Made by a program: the position numbers and the translations under genes. Shown one piece after another: positions 13,256 to 23,100 of a stretch of 34,182 nt of DNA (positions are counted from its first letter, which is position 1; every line of letters starts with the position of its first letter). The stretch is from Sulfurimonas sp. (GTDB lineage: Bacteria > Campylobacterota > Campylobacteria > Campylobacterales > Sulfurimonadaceae): positions 1-34,182 of the forward strand of contig JAOTSA010000010.1 of the NCBI GenBank assembly GCA_030247515.1, given 5' to 3'. The notes beneath the pieces are model-generated. The model saw only the letters and a list, made by a program, of their open reading frames with translations, was not told where the DNA came from and searched no databases.

Positions 13256-15367
13256 ATGAATGCCATGACACAAGAGACAAAGCAAACACTGCTCTACATA
13301 GCCATTGCATTTGCGTTTTCAGTTGCCGTTCGTCTGATTTGGTATTATCAGTTTAGCGGCTATGAACCCTTTATGTTTAACTCCCAGTTTATGATAAACA
13401 CAAATGACGGTTACTACTTTGCAGAGGGTGCTAGAGATATCTTAAGCGGTGTGAACCAAGAGAACGATTTGTCTCCCATAACTATGGCGGCTTCAAGACT
13501 AACCGCACTTTTTGCTTTTATACTCCCATTTTCATTTGAAACTGTTATTTTTTTTATGCCAGTGGTGCTTAGTTCGCTTGTTGTTATCCCCATTATCCTT
13601 ATAGCAAGAAGCCTTGGGGATTTGGAAATGGGGCTTGTTGCGGCACTTTTGGCAAGCATCGCACATAGTTACTACAACCGCACAATGATAGGCTACTTTG
13701 ATACCGACATGCTTAATATTGTACTGCCGATGTTCTTGCTTTGGTCGATTATTTTGGCGATAAGAACAAATGAGGACAAATACCTTCTCGTTATGGCATT
13801 TGATATCTTGCTTTATCGTTGGTGGTATCCTCAGAGTTACTCTTTGGAGTTTGCATTTTTTGGATTAATCCTCTTTTACACACTTATATGGGAGAGAAAA
13901 AATCTCTACAATTACAAGCTTTTAGCCATTATGATGTTTGCGATGGTTGGGCTTGACGAGTATTTGCGATTTCTTATTGTTATGGTTGTTTTTGCACTCT
14001 ATAAACAGAAGAAGTTTGAAAAATATGTTTATGCACTGCTTGGCATAGCAGTTGTTCTCTTTTTTGCTTCAGGAGGATTTAAACCTATCTGGTATCTTTT
14101 GAAAATATATGTTTTTAAAGATGCCGTTATGGCAGGAGATTTGGGTCTAAAACTTCATTTTTATGCAGTCATGCAGACTGTACGAGAAGCAGGACATATC
14201 CCTTTTGAAACATTTGCAAGCCGTATAAGCGGGCATGTTGTTACATTTTTAGTTTCAGTGGCTGGGTTTGTTTATCTTACATATAAACACAAAGTGATGC
14301 TCTTTGGTTTGCCACTTATCGGGCTTGGTTTTTTGGCTTATGCTGGAGGGCTTCGATTTACCATCTATGCAGTCCCTGTTTTAGCTTTTGGAGCAGCATT
14401 TCTTATCACACAGACCGCTCAATTTATGCCGACGCCAAGGCTGAAATTTCTCGCACCTCTGCTTCTTACGATTCTGGCTTTGGTTCCAAATATCATACAT
14501 ATCCAAAACTACAAAGTTCCGACTGTTTTTCAAGCCGATGAGGTAAAGGTTTTAGAGAAGCTTAAAGCAGAAGCAAAGAGAGAGGATTATGTCGTTGCGT
14601 GGTGGGATTATGGTTATCCGATTCGTTACTACAGTGATGTTAAGACGTTGGTTGATGGTGGTAAGCATGATGGAGATGTCAATTTTCCTGTTAGTTTTAT
14701 GCTGACAAATCCACCTGAAGTTGCCGCAAAAATGGCGAGACTTGATGTGGAATATACCGAAATGCGCTATAAGCGTACGAAAGAGGATAAAAATCTCACA
14801 CTTCTTTCAAATATAGAGGAGATGACAAAGGCGTATGGTTTTAGTGACACAAATGACTTTTTGTACTCACTCCAAACAGAGACAACGCTTCCTGAAAAAA
14901 CAAGAGATGTCTATTTCTATCTTCCTGTTAGAATGAGCGATATTTACCCAACAGTGGAGATGTTTTCTAACATTGACCTCATGAGCGGCGAGATGAAAAA
15001 ACGCTCTTTTTTCTATACAACAAAATCTTTTAAACAAGATGGCAACAAAATCAATCTTGATCAAGGAATTGTCTTTGATTTGCAAAGTACAACTGTCATG
15101 ATAGGGACTCAAAAAGCATCTGTAAAAAGGTTCGTTCAAACAGCTTATGATAAAAACATGAAGCTTACAAAAAACATACAAATGGCAAATCCTGAAGGGG
15201 AGATGAGTGTGGTATATATGTCAAATTATGGGACTTTTTTGGTTCTTGATGAAAAAACATATAATTCTCTCTATATTCAGTTAGCAGTTTTAGAAGAGTA
15301 TGATAAAATGTTATTTGAAGAGGTTGTTTTAGCCCCTCAAGCAAAAGTATATAAATTAAAAATTTAA
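13256..15367 (+). CDS. pglB: Oligosaccharyltransferase PglB/STT3 family (protein N-glycosylation)
   Basis: PglB moves a lipid-linked oligosaccharide onto Asn in D/E-x-N-x-S/T sequons at the periplasmic face of the inner membrane. The 703-residue length is close to C. jejuni PglB. About 12-13 hydrophobic segments fill residues 1-410. NTNDGYYFAEGARD in the first periplasmic loop supplies an acidic metal ligand and GYFDTDML carries a DxD-like motif. The soluble periplasmic domain has WWDYG at 449-453 followed by YPIRYYSDVKTLVDGGKH, and RMSDI fits the MxxI motif of bacterial enzymes. It ends AKVYKLKI, as in Campylobacter. The ribosome site is AGGGAGC. The rest of the pgl glycan cluster is not here; galU and pgi follow and feed nucleotide-sugar supply. 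Confidence 0.94.
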   Translation: MNAMTQETKQTLLYIAIAFAFSVAVRLIWYYQFSGYEPFMFNSQFMINTNDGYYFAEGARDILSGVNQENDLSPITMAASRLTALFAFILPFSFETVIFFMPVVLSSLVVIPIILIARSLGDLEMGLVAALLASIAHSYYNRTMIGYFDTDMLNIVLPMFLLWSIILAIRTNEDKYLLVMAFDILLYRWWYPQSYSLEFAFFGLILFYTLIWERKNLYNYKLLAIMMFAMVGLDEYLRFLIVMVVFALYKQKKFEKYVYALLGIAVVLFFASGGFKPIWYLLKIYVFKDAVMAGDLGLKLHFYAVMQTVREAGHIPFETFASRISGHVVTFLVSVAGFVYLTYKHKVMLFGLPLIGLGFLAYAGGLRFTIYAVPVLAFGAAFLITQTAQFMPTPRLKFLAPLLLTILALVPNIIHIQNYKVPTVFQADEVKVLEKLKAEAKREDYVVAWWDYGYPIRYYSDVKTLVDGGKHDGDVNFPVSFMLTNPPEVAAKMARLDVEYTEMRYKRTKEDKNLTLLSNIEEMTKAYGFSDTNDFLYSLQTETTLPEKTRDVYFYLPVRMSDIYPTVEMFSNIDLMSGEMKKRSFFYTTKSFKQDGNKINLDQGIVFDLQSTTVMIGTQKASVKRFVQTAYDKNMKLTKNIQMANPEGEMSVVYMSNYGTFLVLDEKTYNSLYIQLAVLEEYDKMLFEEVVLAPQAKVYKLKI

Positions 15368-17435: not shown

Positions 17436-17475
17436 AAAAATGTGGGGCTGTTCTTAAACTAGAACATGCCCCACA
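17436..17475 (-). terminator. Strong intrinsic terminator closing the 12-gene minus-strand run
   Basis: On the minus strand an 8-bp G+C-rich stem TGTGGGGC/GCCCCACA (17468-17475 with 17441-17448) is extended by a 6-bp stem (17461-17466 with 17449-17454) across one bulged base, with loop at 17455-17460. It is followed by TTTTT at 17440-17436. The stem includes the stop codon of the ATP-grasp gene. In the plus direction it may also stop pgi transcripts, but only AATTT follows. Confidence 0.85.
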
Positions 17476-18632
17476 AATTTGCTCATATTGTTTAAAATCT
17501 CTCCGCCTTTTCTAAAACCAAGTCCGCATGCTTCATAAGCAAAGAAAACTCCAGCTTGATATTTTGCCCCGTCTTTGTCTTTTGGGAGTTCGGCGTACTC
17601 TTGATACACTTTTTTATGATTTCCATAAACTCCATCTTGCTCCTCAATAAGTGTTCCATCACCCCCATAGATAGCAACATTCGCTCCCTCTCTGCCAAAA
17701 ACAGTTTTTTCAACATGTTTTAGCCCTTTGAGTGGCTCAAATGATGCCTTAAGAAGATAAGGCGAATCAGGAAAAAGGTCCCACAGAATCTTAAGCATCC
17801 CTTTTGATTGGAACAGAAGAGTATATGCAGGGTTTAAGATAATTGCGTTTTGGTTTTGCATGATGTTTGTAAGAGTTGTTGCAAGTTCTGGCTCATCTGT
17901 CGCTATATCTTCCCATGGATAGAGTTTAAACCAATATTCGTACTGATTGTCATCTCTATCATAGATACCATCTTCATCAAATCGTACACTCTCAAGATAC
18001 TCAAAACCAGTGTTAAACCCAGCATCAGTTGCCATCTGACGTAAAAGTTTTGTTGTTGCTTCCTCTTCATCATTGCCGCTAATAGACGAGAAGAGTATTT
18101 TCCATCCCTCGTATCGCTCGTCAAAAAGCTCTGTATCCTCAAAGAGTGTTATAAGGCGTTTGAAGTTCTCTTTAATAGCCTCATAAACATTGTTAAACTG
18201 CTCATTTTCATCCATATTGTTGGCCCTTAAGAGTCCCCATTGAAGCAGAGCTGTCTCGAAAAGTGAGGTTGGCGTGTCAGCGTTGAACTCCAAAAGTTTG
18301 ATAGGTTTTCCATCAATCCCGCCAGCAAAATCAAATCTGCCATAGATATGCCAGTGAACGTCACTTTCCCAGCTTTTTTTGATAGCATCTATGAGGTTAA
18401 AAGGGATGCCAAGCTCAAAAAAGAGGTTGTTTTCTATGACATATCCAGCGGCCTCTGCGTACATGTCATAAATCTCATTAGCCGCTTCATAATAAGCTTC
18501 TGCCTCGTCGTGCGTCACTTGAACCAATGAATCGCTTACGTATCTGCTCTTGTCGCTGTCTGTATGCCATGTAAGCCCTAGCTCTTCAAGTTGTTCATTT
18601 TTGAGAGTTTTTATATGTTGTAATTGAACCAT
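17454..18632 (-). CDS. Glutathionylspermidine synthase-like ATP-grasp ligase (YgiC/YjfC type)
   Basis: This 392-residue protein belongs to the GSP_synth family, whose characterized member, the E. coli Gsp synthetase domain, joins an amine of spermidine to the C-terminal glycine of glutathione using ATP. There is no N-terminal amidase domain, so it matches the stand-alone YgiC/YjfC type. Visible motifs are LLEFNADTPTSLFETALLQW, FKLYPWEDI, a Lys-led ATP-grasp segment KTVFGREGANVAIYGGDG and LGFRKGG near the end. The true substrate of this subgroup is not established. The start lies three bases after the UPF0323 lipoprotein stop, and that pairing recurs in Campylobacter (Cj0372/Cj0371, recalled). 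It is the last gene before the terminator. Confidence 0.85.
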   Translation of the reverse strand: MVQLQHIKTLKNEQLEELGLTWHTDSDKSRYVSDSLVQVTHDEAEAYYEAANEIYDMYAEAAGYVIENNLFFELGIPFNLIDAIKKSWESDVHWHIYGRFDFAGGIDGKPIKLLEFNADTPTSLFETALLQWGLLRANNMDENEQFNNVYEAIKENFKRLITLFEDTELFDERYEGWKILFSSISGNDEEEATTKLLRQMATDAGFNTGFEYLESVRFDEDGIYDRDDNQYEYWFKLYPWEDIATDEPELATTLTNIMQNQNAIILNPAYTLLFQSKGMLKILWDLFPDSPYLLKASFEPLKGLKHVEKTVFGREGANVAIYGGDGTLIEEQDGVYGNHKKVYQEYAELPKDKDGAKYQAGVFFAYEACGLGFRKGGEILNNMSKFVGHVLV

Positions 18633-18635
18633 TAT

Positions 18636-19253
18636 TTAACCACCGTTTGTTGAACTGCTAGATGTTGATGAAGGTGAAGTGGAAGCTGGTGCTGCAGTTG
18701 AACCCGAACCGCCAAAGTAGCTTTTTTTTGTAGAGGACGCCGCCGCACTTGATGCTCCTGAAGCAGGGCGGTTATACGCACTTTGATTGACTGTTGAAGC
18801 TCTTTGTGAAAAGTTTTTGTTGTTCATAAGGGCATTGCCTATCATATTTCCCAAAAGTGAACCTGCGGCAACTGCCAAAATAGTTCCCGCAAGCCCCATT
18901 CCAGCACCACCCTCAGAAGAGCTTAGAGTTTCAGAACTGCCATCTTGTACTTTTTTGTACTCCAGTTCTGCAAGTGCTTTCATCTCTGCTTCACTCATAA
19001 TACGCTCAGTTTTGTTTCCGTTTGCATCCGTTTCACGAATAATTGCTCTGCTTGGACCCTCTGTTGGCATCTCCTCGACAACAACATACTTTCCATTTGC
19101 TTGTTGCTCTATAACTAAAAACTTGTTTTGTTGCTGCTTTTGTTCTTGCTGCTGCTGTTGTTGGCTAGATTCGCATCCGCCAAGAACACTCATCATAACT
19201 ATGCCAGCACTCCCCAGTGCCACACCGCTTGCAATTGAGTAGATATGCTTCAT
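18636..19253 (-). CDS. UPF0323-family lipoprotein with Gln tract and Gly-Gly C terminus
   Basis: This 205-residue protein has a lipoprotein signal: basic start, hydrophobic stretch and lipobox LGGC with Cys27. A Gln-rich tract (about 30-42) follows, then a conserved mixed region (FLVIEQQANGKYVVVEEMP), a Gly/Ala-rich hydrophobic segment (GMGLAGTILAVAAGSLLGNMIG, about 117-138, glycine-zipper-like) and a long Ser/Thr/Ala/Gly tail ending STNGG. The family is found in Campylobacterota (C. jejuni Cj0371 and H. pylori HP0232, from memory) and has been linked to motility; its mechanism is not known. Its start overlaps the membrane protein stop (ATGA) and the ATP-grasp gene follows three bases later, so the three look like one module. 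Confidence 0.82.
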   Translation of the reverse strand: MKHIYSIASGVALGSAGIVMMSVLGGCESSQQQQQQEQKQQQNKFLVIEQQANGKYVVVEEMPTEGPSRAIIRETDANGNKTERIMSEAEMKALAELEYKKVQDGSSETLSSSEGGAGMGLAGTILAVAAGSLLGNMIGNALMNNKNFSQRASTVNQSAYNRPASGASSAAASSTKKSYFGGSGSTAAPASTSPSSTSSSSTNGG

Positions 19254-19693
19254 TGCACTAAATCCTTTTTGTCAAATGTAACTGTTTTTTTGAGATTGTA
19301 ACTATAAAAAGTAATTTTTTCTCTTCCATTGTAGATAATATCACCCACATAACTATGTCTTTTAATCTTAATGGTTATATTTTTTTTCATAAACATCGCT
19401 TCTCCTGCTTTATAACCGACATTCTCAAAGAGTGTGAGTGAGACAAAAAGAGCAACTAGCGGTATGGGAATCAAGGAGATTTTAGAGTTTTTTACATAAA
19501 CGACAATATATCCCAAAACAACAGAGAGAGTAAAAAAAAGATACCAATTTTGGTTGTCTGCAAAGAGGATGTTGTAGTAAACCCCAACTTCATAATGCTC
19601 TGTGTAGTGAAGAAAAATTCCCAAAAATAGAAAAAAATCCAAAACAAACGTGATAAACATTCCCGTTAGGAGTGCCTGAATCGCTTTACTCAT
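19250..19693 (-). CDS. Small inner-membrane protein of unknown function
   Basis: I do not recognise this family. The 147-residue product has hydrophobic segments at about 6-27, 51-66 and 73-92, then a basic, likely soluble C-terminal part rich in Lys (KKNITIKIKRHSYVG ... TVTFDKKDL). I chose the ATG at 19693 over one at 19708: it has GGAGAAG nine bases upstream and overlaps the stop of the Sua5-like gene as ATGA. Its own stop overlaps the lipoprotein start in the same way, implying translational coupling. In E. coli the yjf cluster also pairs a small membrane protein with a lipoprotein and a GspS-like ligase, so a shared envelope role is an inference. Confidence 0.7.
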   Translation of the reverse strand: MSKAIQALLTGMFITFVLDFFLFLGIFLHYTEHYEVGVYYNILFADNQNWYLFFTLSVVLGYIVVYVKNSKISLIPIPLVALFVSLTLFENVGYKAGEAMFMKKNITIKIKRHSYVGDIIYNGREKITFYSYNLKKTVTFDKKDLVQ

Positions 19694-20121
19694 CGTAATC
19701 TTCTCCATTTTTTAGCATTTATCTTAATAACTTTTGATGCGCTCTTTTCTCTTAGTCTCTCACTTTCCTCGATAATTATATCAGCTTTTGCTTCACAAAA
19801 TGCTCTCTCAAAATGCTCACCGCTTCTGTTGGCAGAAGTTGAGTAAAACCATGGAGTGTCTCGTAAAAACTGTGAATGCAGAGGTACTTTGGCAATGCGA
19901 AAAGAGAAATCGCCAATGATAAAAGTAGTTTTTTTGGAACGACGGATAAGTTTTTTTCTCTTTTTAGGAACTCTTTTACCATCATTGATAAAACTTTTGA
20001 AATCTTTATAAACTCTGATAAAGGGCTTTGAAGAGGGACGGGATTTGATGTCGCAAAGTTTTTGTGCATCTTGCGACAAAAAACCGACAGTAGTGTCGGT
20101 TTGAGTTAAGATTATCGGCAT
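19690..20121 (-). CDS. Short Sua5/YciO/YrdC (TsaC)-like protein
   Basis: This 143-residue protein resembles the YrdC fold that makes threonylcarbamoyl-adenylate for the t6A modification of ANN-reading tRNAs. Signatures are TQTDTTVGFLSQD near the start (in place of PTETVYGLG), KSRPSSKP (the KxR...KP motif) and STSANRSG (the SANxSG motif). It is clearly shorter than the ~190-residue E. coli TsaC. The segment between the two motifs is compact and Lys-rich. I chose the ATG at 20121, two bases after the carB stop, over an upstream ATG at 20163 that would overlap carB by 40 bases. Whether it is the functional TsaC depends on whether another copy exists in the genome. Confidence 0.68.
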   Translation of the reverse strand: MPIILTQTDTTVGFLSQDAQKLCDIKSRPSSKPFIRVYKDFKSFINDGKRVPKKRKKLIRRSKKTTFIIGDFSFRIAKVPLHSQFLRDTPWFYSTSANRSGEHFERAFCEAKADIIIEESERLREKSASKVIKINAKKWRRLR

Positions 20122-20123
20122 CT

Positions 20124-23100
20124 CTATGCTAGAAAATCTTGTAATGCTTTTGAGTTTGACCATGAATCGTTTTTCATCTCATCAAGGGCAAGGATAAGCG
20201 CTCTTGCGGCACTTAGCGTTGTAAAATAGGGAATATTGCGTTTTAAAACTTCTTGGCGGATAACTACAGCATCTTTTTTTGAAGTGTTATTGTCGGAAGT
20301 GTTAATCGCCATATTTATAATATCATTTTTCATGCTATCTTCGATGTTTGGACGACCCTCTGAAATCTTTAAAACTACCTCACAAGGGATGCCTGCTTCT
20401 TCTATAACGGATTGTGTGCCTCTTGTCGCAACAAGTTTAAAACCGTGTCTATGAAGTCCACTTGCTATCTCTGGGGCATGTTTTTTGTCTGTGTCAACAA
20501 AAGAGAGGAAACATGTTCCCTCTGTTACGATTCTGTTTCCAGCCGCTATCTGTGCTTTTGCAAAACTGATACCAAAGTTCGAGCTGATACCCATAACTTC
20601 GCCAGTTGATTTCATTTCAGGTCCTAGAACCAAATCCGCACCATAGAGTTTATGGAATGGAAAAACCGCTTCTTTAACAGAGATATGACCTTTTAGACGA
20701 GGTTTAAGAAGTCCATTTTGCTCTTCAACAATGTTGTATTTGTCATAGTAAGCAAGTGCATCTCTTAGAGTCTCTCCGACCATAACACGAGTTGCAACTT
20801 TTGCAAGCGGCATACCCGTTGCTTTGCTGACAAACGGAACAGTTCGGCTTGCTCTTGGATTTACTTCGATTAGGTAAATTTCATCTTGATAAATTGCATA
20901 CTGAACATTCATAAGCCCGATAACGCCAAGTCCGAGAGCGATTGTTTTTGTCTGCTGCTCAACTTTATCAATCATTTCTTTTGAGAGGTTAACTGGAGGA
21001 AGTGAACACGCACTGTCACCAGAGTGGATGCCTGCCTCTTCTATGTGTTGCATAACAGAACCGATGTAAACATCTTTGCCATCACAAATAGCATCAACAT
21101 CAAGCTCAATCGCCTGATCTAAAAATTTGTCTATCAAAACAGGAGCGTTATTTGAGATAGATACCGCCAAATCAATGTACTGTTTAAGCTCATTTTCACT
21201 ATAAACTATTCTCATTCCACGCCCGCCAAGAACAAACGATGGGCGAACAAGTACAGGATAGCCGAGTTTTTCTGCGATAACAAACGACTCCTCTTTTGTA
21301 CGAGCAAGACCGTTTGCAGGCTGCTTCAATCCATGCTTGTTTACAAAGTTGGAGAACTGCTCTCTATCTTCTGCCAAATCGATTACATGAGAGGGTGTAC
21401 CTGCGATTTTTGTTCCTATTTTTGTAAGAGAATCTGCAAGTTTAAGAGGAGTTTGACCGCCAAAGTGAACGATGACACCATCTGGATTTTCATTTTCTAT
21501 AACTTCTCTTACATGCTCAAAATCAATAGGCTCAAAGTAGAGAACATCTGAAGTATCATAGTCTGTTGAAACAGTTTCAGGGTTACAGTTGTACATGATA
21601 GTCTCGATACCCATCTCTTTTAGGGCAAATGCAGCGTGGACACAACAGTAGTCAAACTCTATACCTTGACCGATACGGTTTGGTCCGCCGCCAAGAATAA
21701 GAACTTTTTTCTTGTCACTCACTCTATTTTTGACATTTGGAAGTTTTGTGATGTTTGTTGTAGAGTAAAGATAAGGTGTAAGTGCTTCAAACTCTGCCGC
21801 ACATGTATCAACTTCGTTATATTCGAGATTTACGCCAAGAGATTTTTTAGCTTTGTAAACATCCTCTTCGCTTACTTCTTTGTTTGAGTTTTTAGTTATC
21901 AGTTGAGAGATTCTTTTATCTGAAAAACCGTCAACTTTTACGCTTCTCATAAACTCTTCATCAGTTAAAATCTTATCCGTAATAATGCTCTCTGTTTGGA
22001 TAATCTCTTCAAGCTGATATAAAAACCATGGGTCAATATTGCAGAGTTCAAACATCTCTGCAATGCTAAGTCCACGGCGGAAACCCTCTGCAACATAGAG
22101 AACTCTCTCTGCATTTGGACGGCGAATCTCATGCTTAATAAAGTCAAAATCAGTGTCAATCGGGTCAAATCCGCATAGTCCAGTCTCAAGTGAGCAGAGT
22201 GCCTTTTGGATAGACTCTTTGAATGTACGCCCGATAGCCATAACTTCGCCAACGCTCTTCATGCTTGTGCTAAGTGTATTTTGTGCTTCTGGGAATTTTT
22301 CAAATGTAAAACGAGGGATTTTTGTCACAACATAGTCGATTACTGGTTCAAATGACGCAGGAGTTCCTGTGATGTCGTTTGTGATTTCATCAAGCGTAAA
22401 ACCAACAGCCAAAAGAGTTGCAACTTTTGCAATAGGATAACCAGTAGCTTTAGAAGCCAAAGCTGATGAGCGAGAAACACGAGGGTTCATCTCGATAACT
22501 ATCATACGCCCTGTTTTTGGGTCTATAGAGAACTGAACGTTACTTCCGCCTGTGTCAACGCCTATCTCTCTTAGGATATCAAAAGAGGCATTGCGCATTC
22601 TTTGGTACTCTTTGTCTGTAAGCGTTAAAGCGGGAGCTACTGTGATAGAGTCGCCCGTATGAACGCCCATCGGGTCAAAGTTCTCGATAGAACAGACGAT
22701 GATACAGTTGTCCGCTTTGTCACGGATAACTTCCATCTCATACTCTTTCCAACCAAGAAGTGACTCTTCGATGAGAATCTCAGTAACTGGAGATTCGTCA
22801 AGACCACGTTTTGCCAGCTCTTTGAACTCGTCCATGTTGTAAGCAACACCGCTTCCCCCACCAGCAAGAGTGAATGATGCACGGATGATAATCGGGAAAC
22901 CGATAGTCTCAGCAGCTTTAAGAGCATCGTCCATGTTGTAGGCGTACATCGAAAATGGTAAATCCATCCCGATTTTAATCATTGCCTCTTTAAATGCCGA
23001 ACGGTCTTCGCCTTTATGGATAGCTTCAGGAGATGCGCCTAAAAATTCGACACCCTCAAGCATACCTTTTTCATACATTTTAGTAGCAACGTTGAGTGCC

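Follow-up and report, generated by a model that had tools for sequence, protein, structure and literature searches.

Ligase-lipoprotein pairs in described systems and in Sulfurimonas

GspS-like ATP-grasp ligases activate a C-terminal carboxylate with ATP and then join it to an amine. In Escherichia coli, two such enzymes of family PF03738, YgiC and YjfC, are each encoded directly after a DUF1190 lipoprotein (ygiB-ygiC and yjfM-yjfC), and the tails of the two lipoproteins carry RGGFG/RGGYG and end in SMGG and HWGG; the yjf cluster adds YjfI, PspA-like, DUF2491 and DUF350 genes. Until recently without an assigned function, both enzymes are annotated as peptide-spermidine ligases and, according to the relevant passages of papers citing Pederick 2023, have this activity in vitro (PMC10948618, PMC12568646, PMC12270671), which is reported for the E. 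coli enzymes only; YgiC is without glutathionylspermidine synthase activity (PMC12506659). No natural substrate in vivo is established for ligases of the YgiC/YjfC type in the literature searched. A similar pair can be found on the minus strand of a stretch of Sulfurimonas sp. DNA (contig JAOTSA010000010.1 of assembly GCA_030247515.1, positions 1 to 34,182, all 34,182 nucleotides of which are referred to below as the window). Here, a ligase of 392 amino acids (17454..18632), predicted to be cytoplasmic, follows a lipoprotein of 205 amino acids from family UPF0323 (18636..19253) after a spacing of only 3 nt (18633-18635). The two genes co-occur across Campylobacterota, and in other phyla proteins with different bodies carry a related tail beside the ligase; of the candidates so far for the enzyme's natural target, the tail is the strongest.

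Other described systems share parts of this arrangement. In Haemophilus influenzae, an outer-membrane lipoprotein and a putative glutathionylspermidine synthase form an operon (NTHI1101/NTHI1100), a likeness in gene pairing; the passages on the two genes propose no functional link between lipoprotein and ligase (PMC13055389). Neighbourhoods of DUF1190 and ligase genes have been described, with DUF1190 called a metal-chelating lipoprotein, in a section that gives no tail motif or substrate idea (PMC11237479). In eukaryotes, the C-terminal LGG carboxylate of SUMO is conjugated to spermidine with ATP (PMC12270671), which is a precedent for a protein C-terminal Gly-Gly joined to spermidine, although this conjugation uses E1/E2 enzymes and involves neither an ATP-grasp ligase nor a lipoprotein. 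Of 30 papers listed in the literature search, two mention DUF1190 and none mentions UPF0323. Within the same phylum as Sulfurimonas, Cj0371 of Campylobacter jejuni is a UPF0323 lipoprotein. It is reported to be polar, to bind CheV and to inhibit chemotaxis, and the passages searched in the papers concerned mention neither a ligase nor a tail (PMC4944492, PMC6104132).

Judged by its sequence, the window ligase is one of the YgiC/YjfC-type ATP-grasp enzymes, whose closest characterised members are peptide-spermidine ligases. It matches PF03738 (GSP_synth) over positions 2-370 of 371 (424.7 bits against a cut-off of 29.3, E 4.6e-127), and E. coli YjfC and YgiC provide its nearest PDB chains by sequence (E about 1e-40, identity 29-31%) as well as its closest solved folds. 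A model built by AlphaFold2 with 28 relatives (predicted local distance difference test, pLDDT, 87) matches YjfC best among PDB entries (7uk6, template-modelling score, TM, 0.85, 27% identity); YgiC and then bifunctional Gss are further matches, and 7uk8 gives a TM of 0.81. In the alignment, R316, E330, N332, K498, K533 and R598 of GspS correspond to R99, E115, N117, K277, K309 and R374 of the window ligase, Glu391 is kept in all five aligned sequences, and Glu392 is Glu or Asp. Bifunctional Gss has the ATP-grasp core and active-site residues in common with the window ligase but possesses an amidase domain and uses glutathione; the corresponding model (NF007801) is matched at positions 254-586 only, with 113 bits against 882, and the window ligase lacks the amidase domain. 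An earlier note made from the DNA alone had called the enzyme GspS-like and likened the locus to YgiB/YgiC. The family, fold and active-site residues agree with the first statement, the closest characterised enzymes being peptide-spermidine ligases rather than glutathionylspermidine synthases, and the second holds in that a lipoprotein with a GG-ended tail precedes the ligase in both cases. Because the window genome encodes NspC, it probably makes spermidine or a relative of it.

UPF0323 genes were taken from 249 scanned Campylobacterota genomes. Both genes are present in 225 of these, the ligase alone in none, the lipoprotein alone in one or two and neither in about 22. Overall, about 248 of the 249 genomes have either both genes or neither. 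In one genome (G232) the lipoprotein gene is cut by the contig end, and no ligase was found in it. The genomes that lack both belong to a wide range of families and genera, a pattern suggesting that the pair was lost jointly several times. Several genera retain both genes at non-adjacent positions.

A two-part tail on dissimilar envelope proteins

The window lipoprotein has the features of UPF0323: a lipobox signal peptide (LGGC at residues 24-27, 19173..19184, with Cys27 predicted to be lipidated), a conserved hydrophobic glycine-zipper segment recognised by hydropathy (residues 120-142, 18828..18896, consensus ILaSAAGAilGSwIGnKLFNN) and a disordered tail. The zipper is the best-conserved stretch of the UPF0323 body. 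The near full-length match to NF003146 reaches 184 bits (E 2.3e-54) where the curated cut-off is 194, and the members tested from the genome's own family also fall below this cut-off. Modelling of the lipoprotein from its single sequence by AlphaFold was uninformative (pLDDT 51). No Pfam match to DUF1190 (PF06693) was obtained and no homology to the body of the E. coli lipoproteins was detected; the idea that UPF0323 is a remote DUF1190 was rejected, as profile-profile comparison aligned the signal peptide only; the score of the global alignment, being forced, was disregarded.

Free variation along the Ser/Thr/Lys-rich UPF0323 tail gives way at its very end to an almost fixed [F/Y]-G-[G/S/A]. 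When 43 genera are weighted equally and the sequences aligned from their C-termini, Gly occupies position -2 in 41 genera (tail background 10.5%), position -1 is Gly, Ser or Ala in 42 (31.5, 8 and 2.5, respectively) and position -3 is Phe or Tyr in 32. These last three positions hold 1.9-2.9 bits, against 0.1-0.6 bits for positions -4 to -15, which are near the tail background. In the window protein, which ends in STNGG, the corresponding Asn-Gly-Gly (18639..18647) is the proposed site of amide formation. A second element, KSGFFGG (family consensus kSGFFg), is located about 20 residues from the C-terminus and takes the diverged form KKSYFGG in the window protein (residues 176-182, 18708..18728); its counterpart in other phyla is RGGFG. 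Besides most of genus g18, discussed below, two loci depart from the terminal pattern: one tail ends in LSS (L052), and at the other (L020) the lipoprotein gene appears to carry a frameshift, since a different reading frame gives SGFFGG and a stop codon immediately ahead of the ligase. One UPF0323 match, in genome G086, has no tail and was discarded as false.

Two side observations concern the same genes. In genome G113, and similarly in G156, UPF0323 is duplicated in tandem before the ligase, the first copy ending in SSFGG (L029, 1501-2826). At three loci of another family (L037, L040 and L078; f8), the gap of about 100 nt between lipoprotein and ligase holds a very short hydrophobic open reading frame (ORF) with HMIGLY/HMIGIY, perhaps a small membrane protein.

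The hypothesis of a tail motif originated from the neighbours of plasmid ligases, which are lipoproteins with differing bodies and similar tails. A preset test, namely an RGGFG-like motif in the last 60 residues together with a small C-terminus in an adjacent envelope ORF, was applied to 80 ligase loci from an independent scan of genome contigs. These loci come from Planctomycetes, Verrucomicrobia, Acidobacteriota, Armatimonadota, Bacteroidota, Actinomycetota, a Geobacter relative and alpha-, beta- and gammaproteobacteria, 34 of them from Enterobacterales. An adjacent upstream ORF with the tail motif was found at 78 loci by the preset pattern and at the other two by eye. Of 503 control ORFs, one carries the motif, and in none is it combined with a small end. 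As a consensus, the motif reads [TS][VI]xRGGFG (R in 75 of the 80, G in 79, F in 77 and G in 79), situated 2-29 residues before a small C-terminal residue, which in the 78 motif partners is G (50), S (22), E (3), T (2) or A (1). Some partners are DUF1190 proteins, others are lipoproteins 105-140 residues long that fall into no Pfam family with confidence, and others again are actinobacterial proteins with one N-terminal membrane segment; the one from the Geobacter relative aligns with DUF1190 in the tail alone (the final 24 positions of the model), with a score below the cut-off. The partners of distant cyanobacterial and Bacillota ligases have related tails (RVSGFG..GGSSS, KSGIG..GASS, SSGFGG), and no tail-bearing neighbour was found in the stretch scanned around an Azospirillum ligase (L109). 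In four loci from Verrucomicrobia, Acidobacteriota and Bacteroidota (L128, L134, L160, L161), GE ends occur (GGGE, SAGE, GAGE) that resemble the Pup terminus.

With the tail present on the adjacent envelope protein at all 80 loci, YgiC and YjfC have a concrete, testable candidate substrate. No statement of a bipartite tail was found in the literature searched; since key subscription papers lie outside this literature, its novelty is provisional. The earlier note had proposed that such ligases amidate the C-terminal glycine of the lipoprotein, or a peptide mimicking it, before export, and had suggested testing whether Gly-Gly is conserved only beside ligase genes. The proposal is partly supported, its core idea of a ligase acting on the tail being in agreement with the conserved end, the co-occurrence of the genes, the persistence of the motif in unlinked genes and the same tail elsewhere; it needs correction as to enzyme class and motif, for the internal element (KSGFFGG in UPF0323), which as RGGFG is the more universal part outside Campylobacterota, had been missed. 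Terminal conservation proved real for Gly at -2 and looser for the last residue, which is G, S, A and rarely E or T. The motif persists without adjacency, and for a test of restriction to ligase neighbourhoods there are almost no negatives, lipoproteins in genomes lacking the ligase being so rare.

Proposed polyamination of the tail and competing explanations

From the gene pairing, tail conservation, co-occurrence and conserved ligase fold and active site, all shown by the analysis, we infer that ligase and lipoprotein are, on balance, probably enzyme and substrate, the ligase recognising the tail and, ahead of export or in its course, linking a polyamine to the tail C-terminus as an amide. 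Of the two signals that the long disordered tail would carry, one is an internal recognition element (in most bacteria RGGFG, in the window protein a KSGFFGG-like form) and the other a small residue at the C-terminus, which a Gly usually precedes. Most likely, the ligase would bind the tail in the cytoplasm while this is the last part of the preprotein awaiting export, would activate the C-terminal carboxylate as an acyl phosphate and would couple it with a polyamine, spermidine being the likeliest. The resulting envelope protein would have a tail end that bears positive charge and resists carboxypeptidases. An enzyme that amidates C-termini would need just such a flexible tail, with a recognition element inside it and a small, fixed residue at its end. 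Since the ligase has no export signal and most tail-bearing partners have lipoprotein or N-terminal membrane signals, the modification would have to precede or accompany export. Such a reaction, if true, would show that bacteria polyaminate envelope proteins at the C-terminus; it would also give DUF1190 and UPF0323 a function, tie polyamine metabolism to the envelope-stress genes of the same operons and suggest a reason why phages carry the pair.

Several points weigh against an enzyme-substrate pair. The modified C-terminus has not been observed so far, and conservation of the tail beside the ligase could reflect docking instead of catalysis. Outside Campylobacterota, the C-terminal residue varies (G, S, E, T, A), which is odd if this is the residue that the enzyme activates. 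Within the phylum, one genus (g18) has mostly FNS/FNA ends, and one genome (G212) encodes a normal lipoprotein ending in GFGG with no ligase detected. Asp610, a spermidine-contacting residue of GspS, is not kept in the YgiC group, and the amine may therefore differ from spermidine. Finally, the ligase is predicted to be cytoplasmic, whereas most of its partners carry export signals. This problem is not fatal, because the C-terminus leaves the cytoplasm last and a recognition element within the tail fits capture at that moment. It is also possible that the UPF0323 tail is cytoplasmic through the glycine-zipper segment; in C. jejuni, polar fluorescence is reported for a GFP fusion of Cj0371 that seems to be C-terminal, as is binding of Cj0371 to CheV, which is cytoplasmic (PMC4944492, PMC6104132), though the H. 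influenzae lipoprotein encoded together with such a ligase is in the outer membrane (PMC13055389). As a general answer to the export problem, a cytoplasmic C-terminus via this helix was rejected, several short partners having no such helix and the actinobacterial ones looking N-in/C-out with cysteine pairs.

If the tail were a docking or regulatory element that tethers or activates the ligase, the true substrate would be a small peptide or another protein. YgiC and YjfC do act on peptides in vitro (Pederick 2023, as cited in a passage of PMC12568646), the identity of the C-terminal residue is loose, and outside Campylobacterota RGGFG is better conserved than that residue. Such a role is nevertheless judged unlikely: in Campylobacterota the last three residues are the most conserved of the tail, a pattern that extends to the carboxylate itself and would not be expected from docking, and the chemistry of the family is activation of a C-terminal carboxylate. 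Somewhat less likely again is amidation with an amine other than spermidine, be it homospermidine, another aminopropylated amine or the amine of a macromolecule, which would yield a cross-link. The missing Asp610, the homospermidine synthase gene beside the pair in phage Motura and the PSP/AdoMetDC gene neighbourhoods described in part of PMC11237479 would fit this variant, against which stand the conserved Glu391, the acidic residue at Glu392 and the reports of YgiC/YjfC as peptide-spermidine ligases. A scheme like that of ribosomally synthesized and post-translationally modified peptides, in which the tail would be modified and then cut off as a small peptidyl-polyamine, with the lipoprotein body as a mere carrier, seems quite improbable. 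A recognition element with a short downstream core does resemble a leader-core layout, and body families differ where the tail is common to all, but most loci have no dedicated peptidase beside the pair and the lipidated body is kept nearly everywhere.

The most improbable explanation is that the terminal Gly-Gly is nothing but the Shine-Dalgarno sequence of the ligase (GGNGGN before its start) and uninformative on the protein. Linked loci often have GGA GGN as the two codons, at Shine-Dalgarno distance, and E. coli yjfM ends in GGGGAGGC before yjfC. However, where the ligase starts more than 40 nt away or lies elsewhere, Gly is still found at -2 in 20 of 22 cases, with ends such as FGS, MGA, FGA, IGG, TGG and FGG, and L020 with its apparent frameshift is one of the exceptions; proteins ending in FGS keep this Gly and have the Shine-Dalgarno sequence placed after the stop codon; and in Sulfitobacter and Roseomonas the lipoprotein is downstream of the ligase and ends in RGFGG and YSSGG. 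Because the motif is kept in unlinked genes and in lipoproteins 3' of the ligase, Gly-Gly is conserved at the protein level, and a Shine-Dalgarno origin was rejected as the full explanation. In tightly linked genes, such a role may favour Gly over Ser or Ala at the final position. Beyond the proposed enzyme-substrate pair in the window, a wider proposal is put forward tentatively, as plausible but short of probable: a portable bipartite tail on unrelated envelope proteins might let a GspS-like ligase make a C-terminal polyamine amide before export, as a dedicated modification that spans phyla and is also borne by phages, perhaps remodelling host envelopes.

Phage-borne pairs and neighbouring genes

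More than 100 records of the phage collection hold such ligases, mainly from Acinetobacter and Aeromonas phages, a few of the records being bacterial contigs. A tail-bearing partner adjoins the ligase in Motura, Acinetobacter phage MD-2021a and FADO, and is near it in phiAS4 and Ochrobactrum phage OC; in Motura, the ligase-lipoprotein pair adjoins the homospermidine synthase gene. DSS3_VP1 has no adjacent partner; one was predicted and then found as a tail ORF (KSTGGFGRSATASRGGSFGG) at 170-424, at the opposite end of the record, from where it would follow the ligase if the genome were permuted or circular. No UPF0323 was found in viral contigs.

In the window, the lipoprotein gene is preceded on the minus strand by that of a small membrane protein (19250..19693), the junction being an ATGA overlap at 19250-19253. 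Although a start at 19708 would give the membrane protein its longest ORF, the start at 19693 matches most relatives (MSK/MNR/MTR) and gives an ATGA overlap with the preceding gene. The earlier note had described a module of three coupled ORFs ending at a strong terminator. The three ORFs (membrane protein, lipoprotein and ligase) are present in the window sequence and ORF list, with the overlap, the 3-nt gap and the coordinates in agreement, and the terminator was confirmed: a hairpin at 17441-17475 on the minus strand, overlapping the last codons and the stop codon of the ligase and followed on this strand by UUUUUC, reaches -25.3 kcal/mol (z -5.6), and none of 200 shuffles is equally stable. 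As a module of three genes, the description needs two corrections. Homologues of the membrane gene at this place can be found only in genomes of the genome's own family (f1), while the lipoprotein-ligase pair is phylum-wide; the membrane gene was accordingly rejected as a conserved third part, and the conserved unit is the lipoprotein with the ligase. The gene chain also extends further upstream, where a Sua5/YciO-like ORF of 157 amino acids (19690..20163, minus strand; PF01300 E 2.4e-9, syntenic in the same family) overlaps the membrane gene, to which it is translationally coupled, as well as a carB-like ORF at that ORF's end. Elsewhere in the window, as read from translation only, an STT3/PglB-like ORF with a WWDYG motif can be found at 13256-15367, with UDP-glucose pyrophosphorylase-like and then glucose-6-phosphate isomerase-like ORFs 3' of it.

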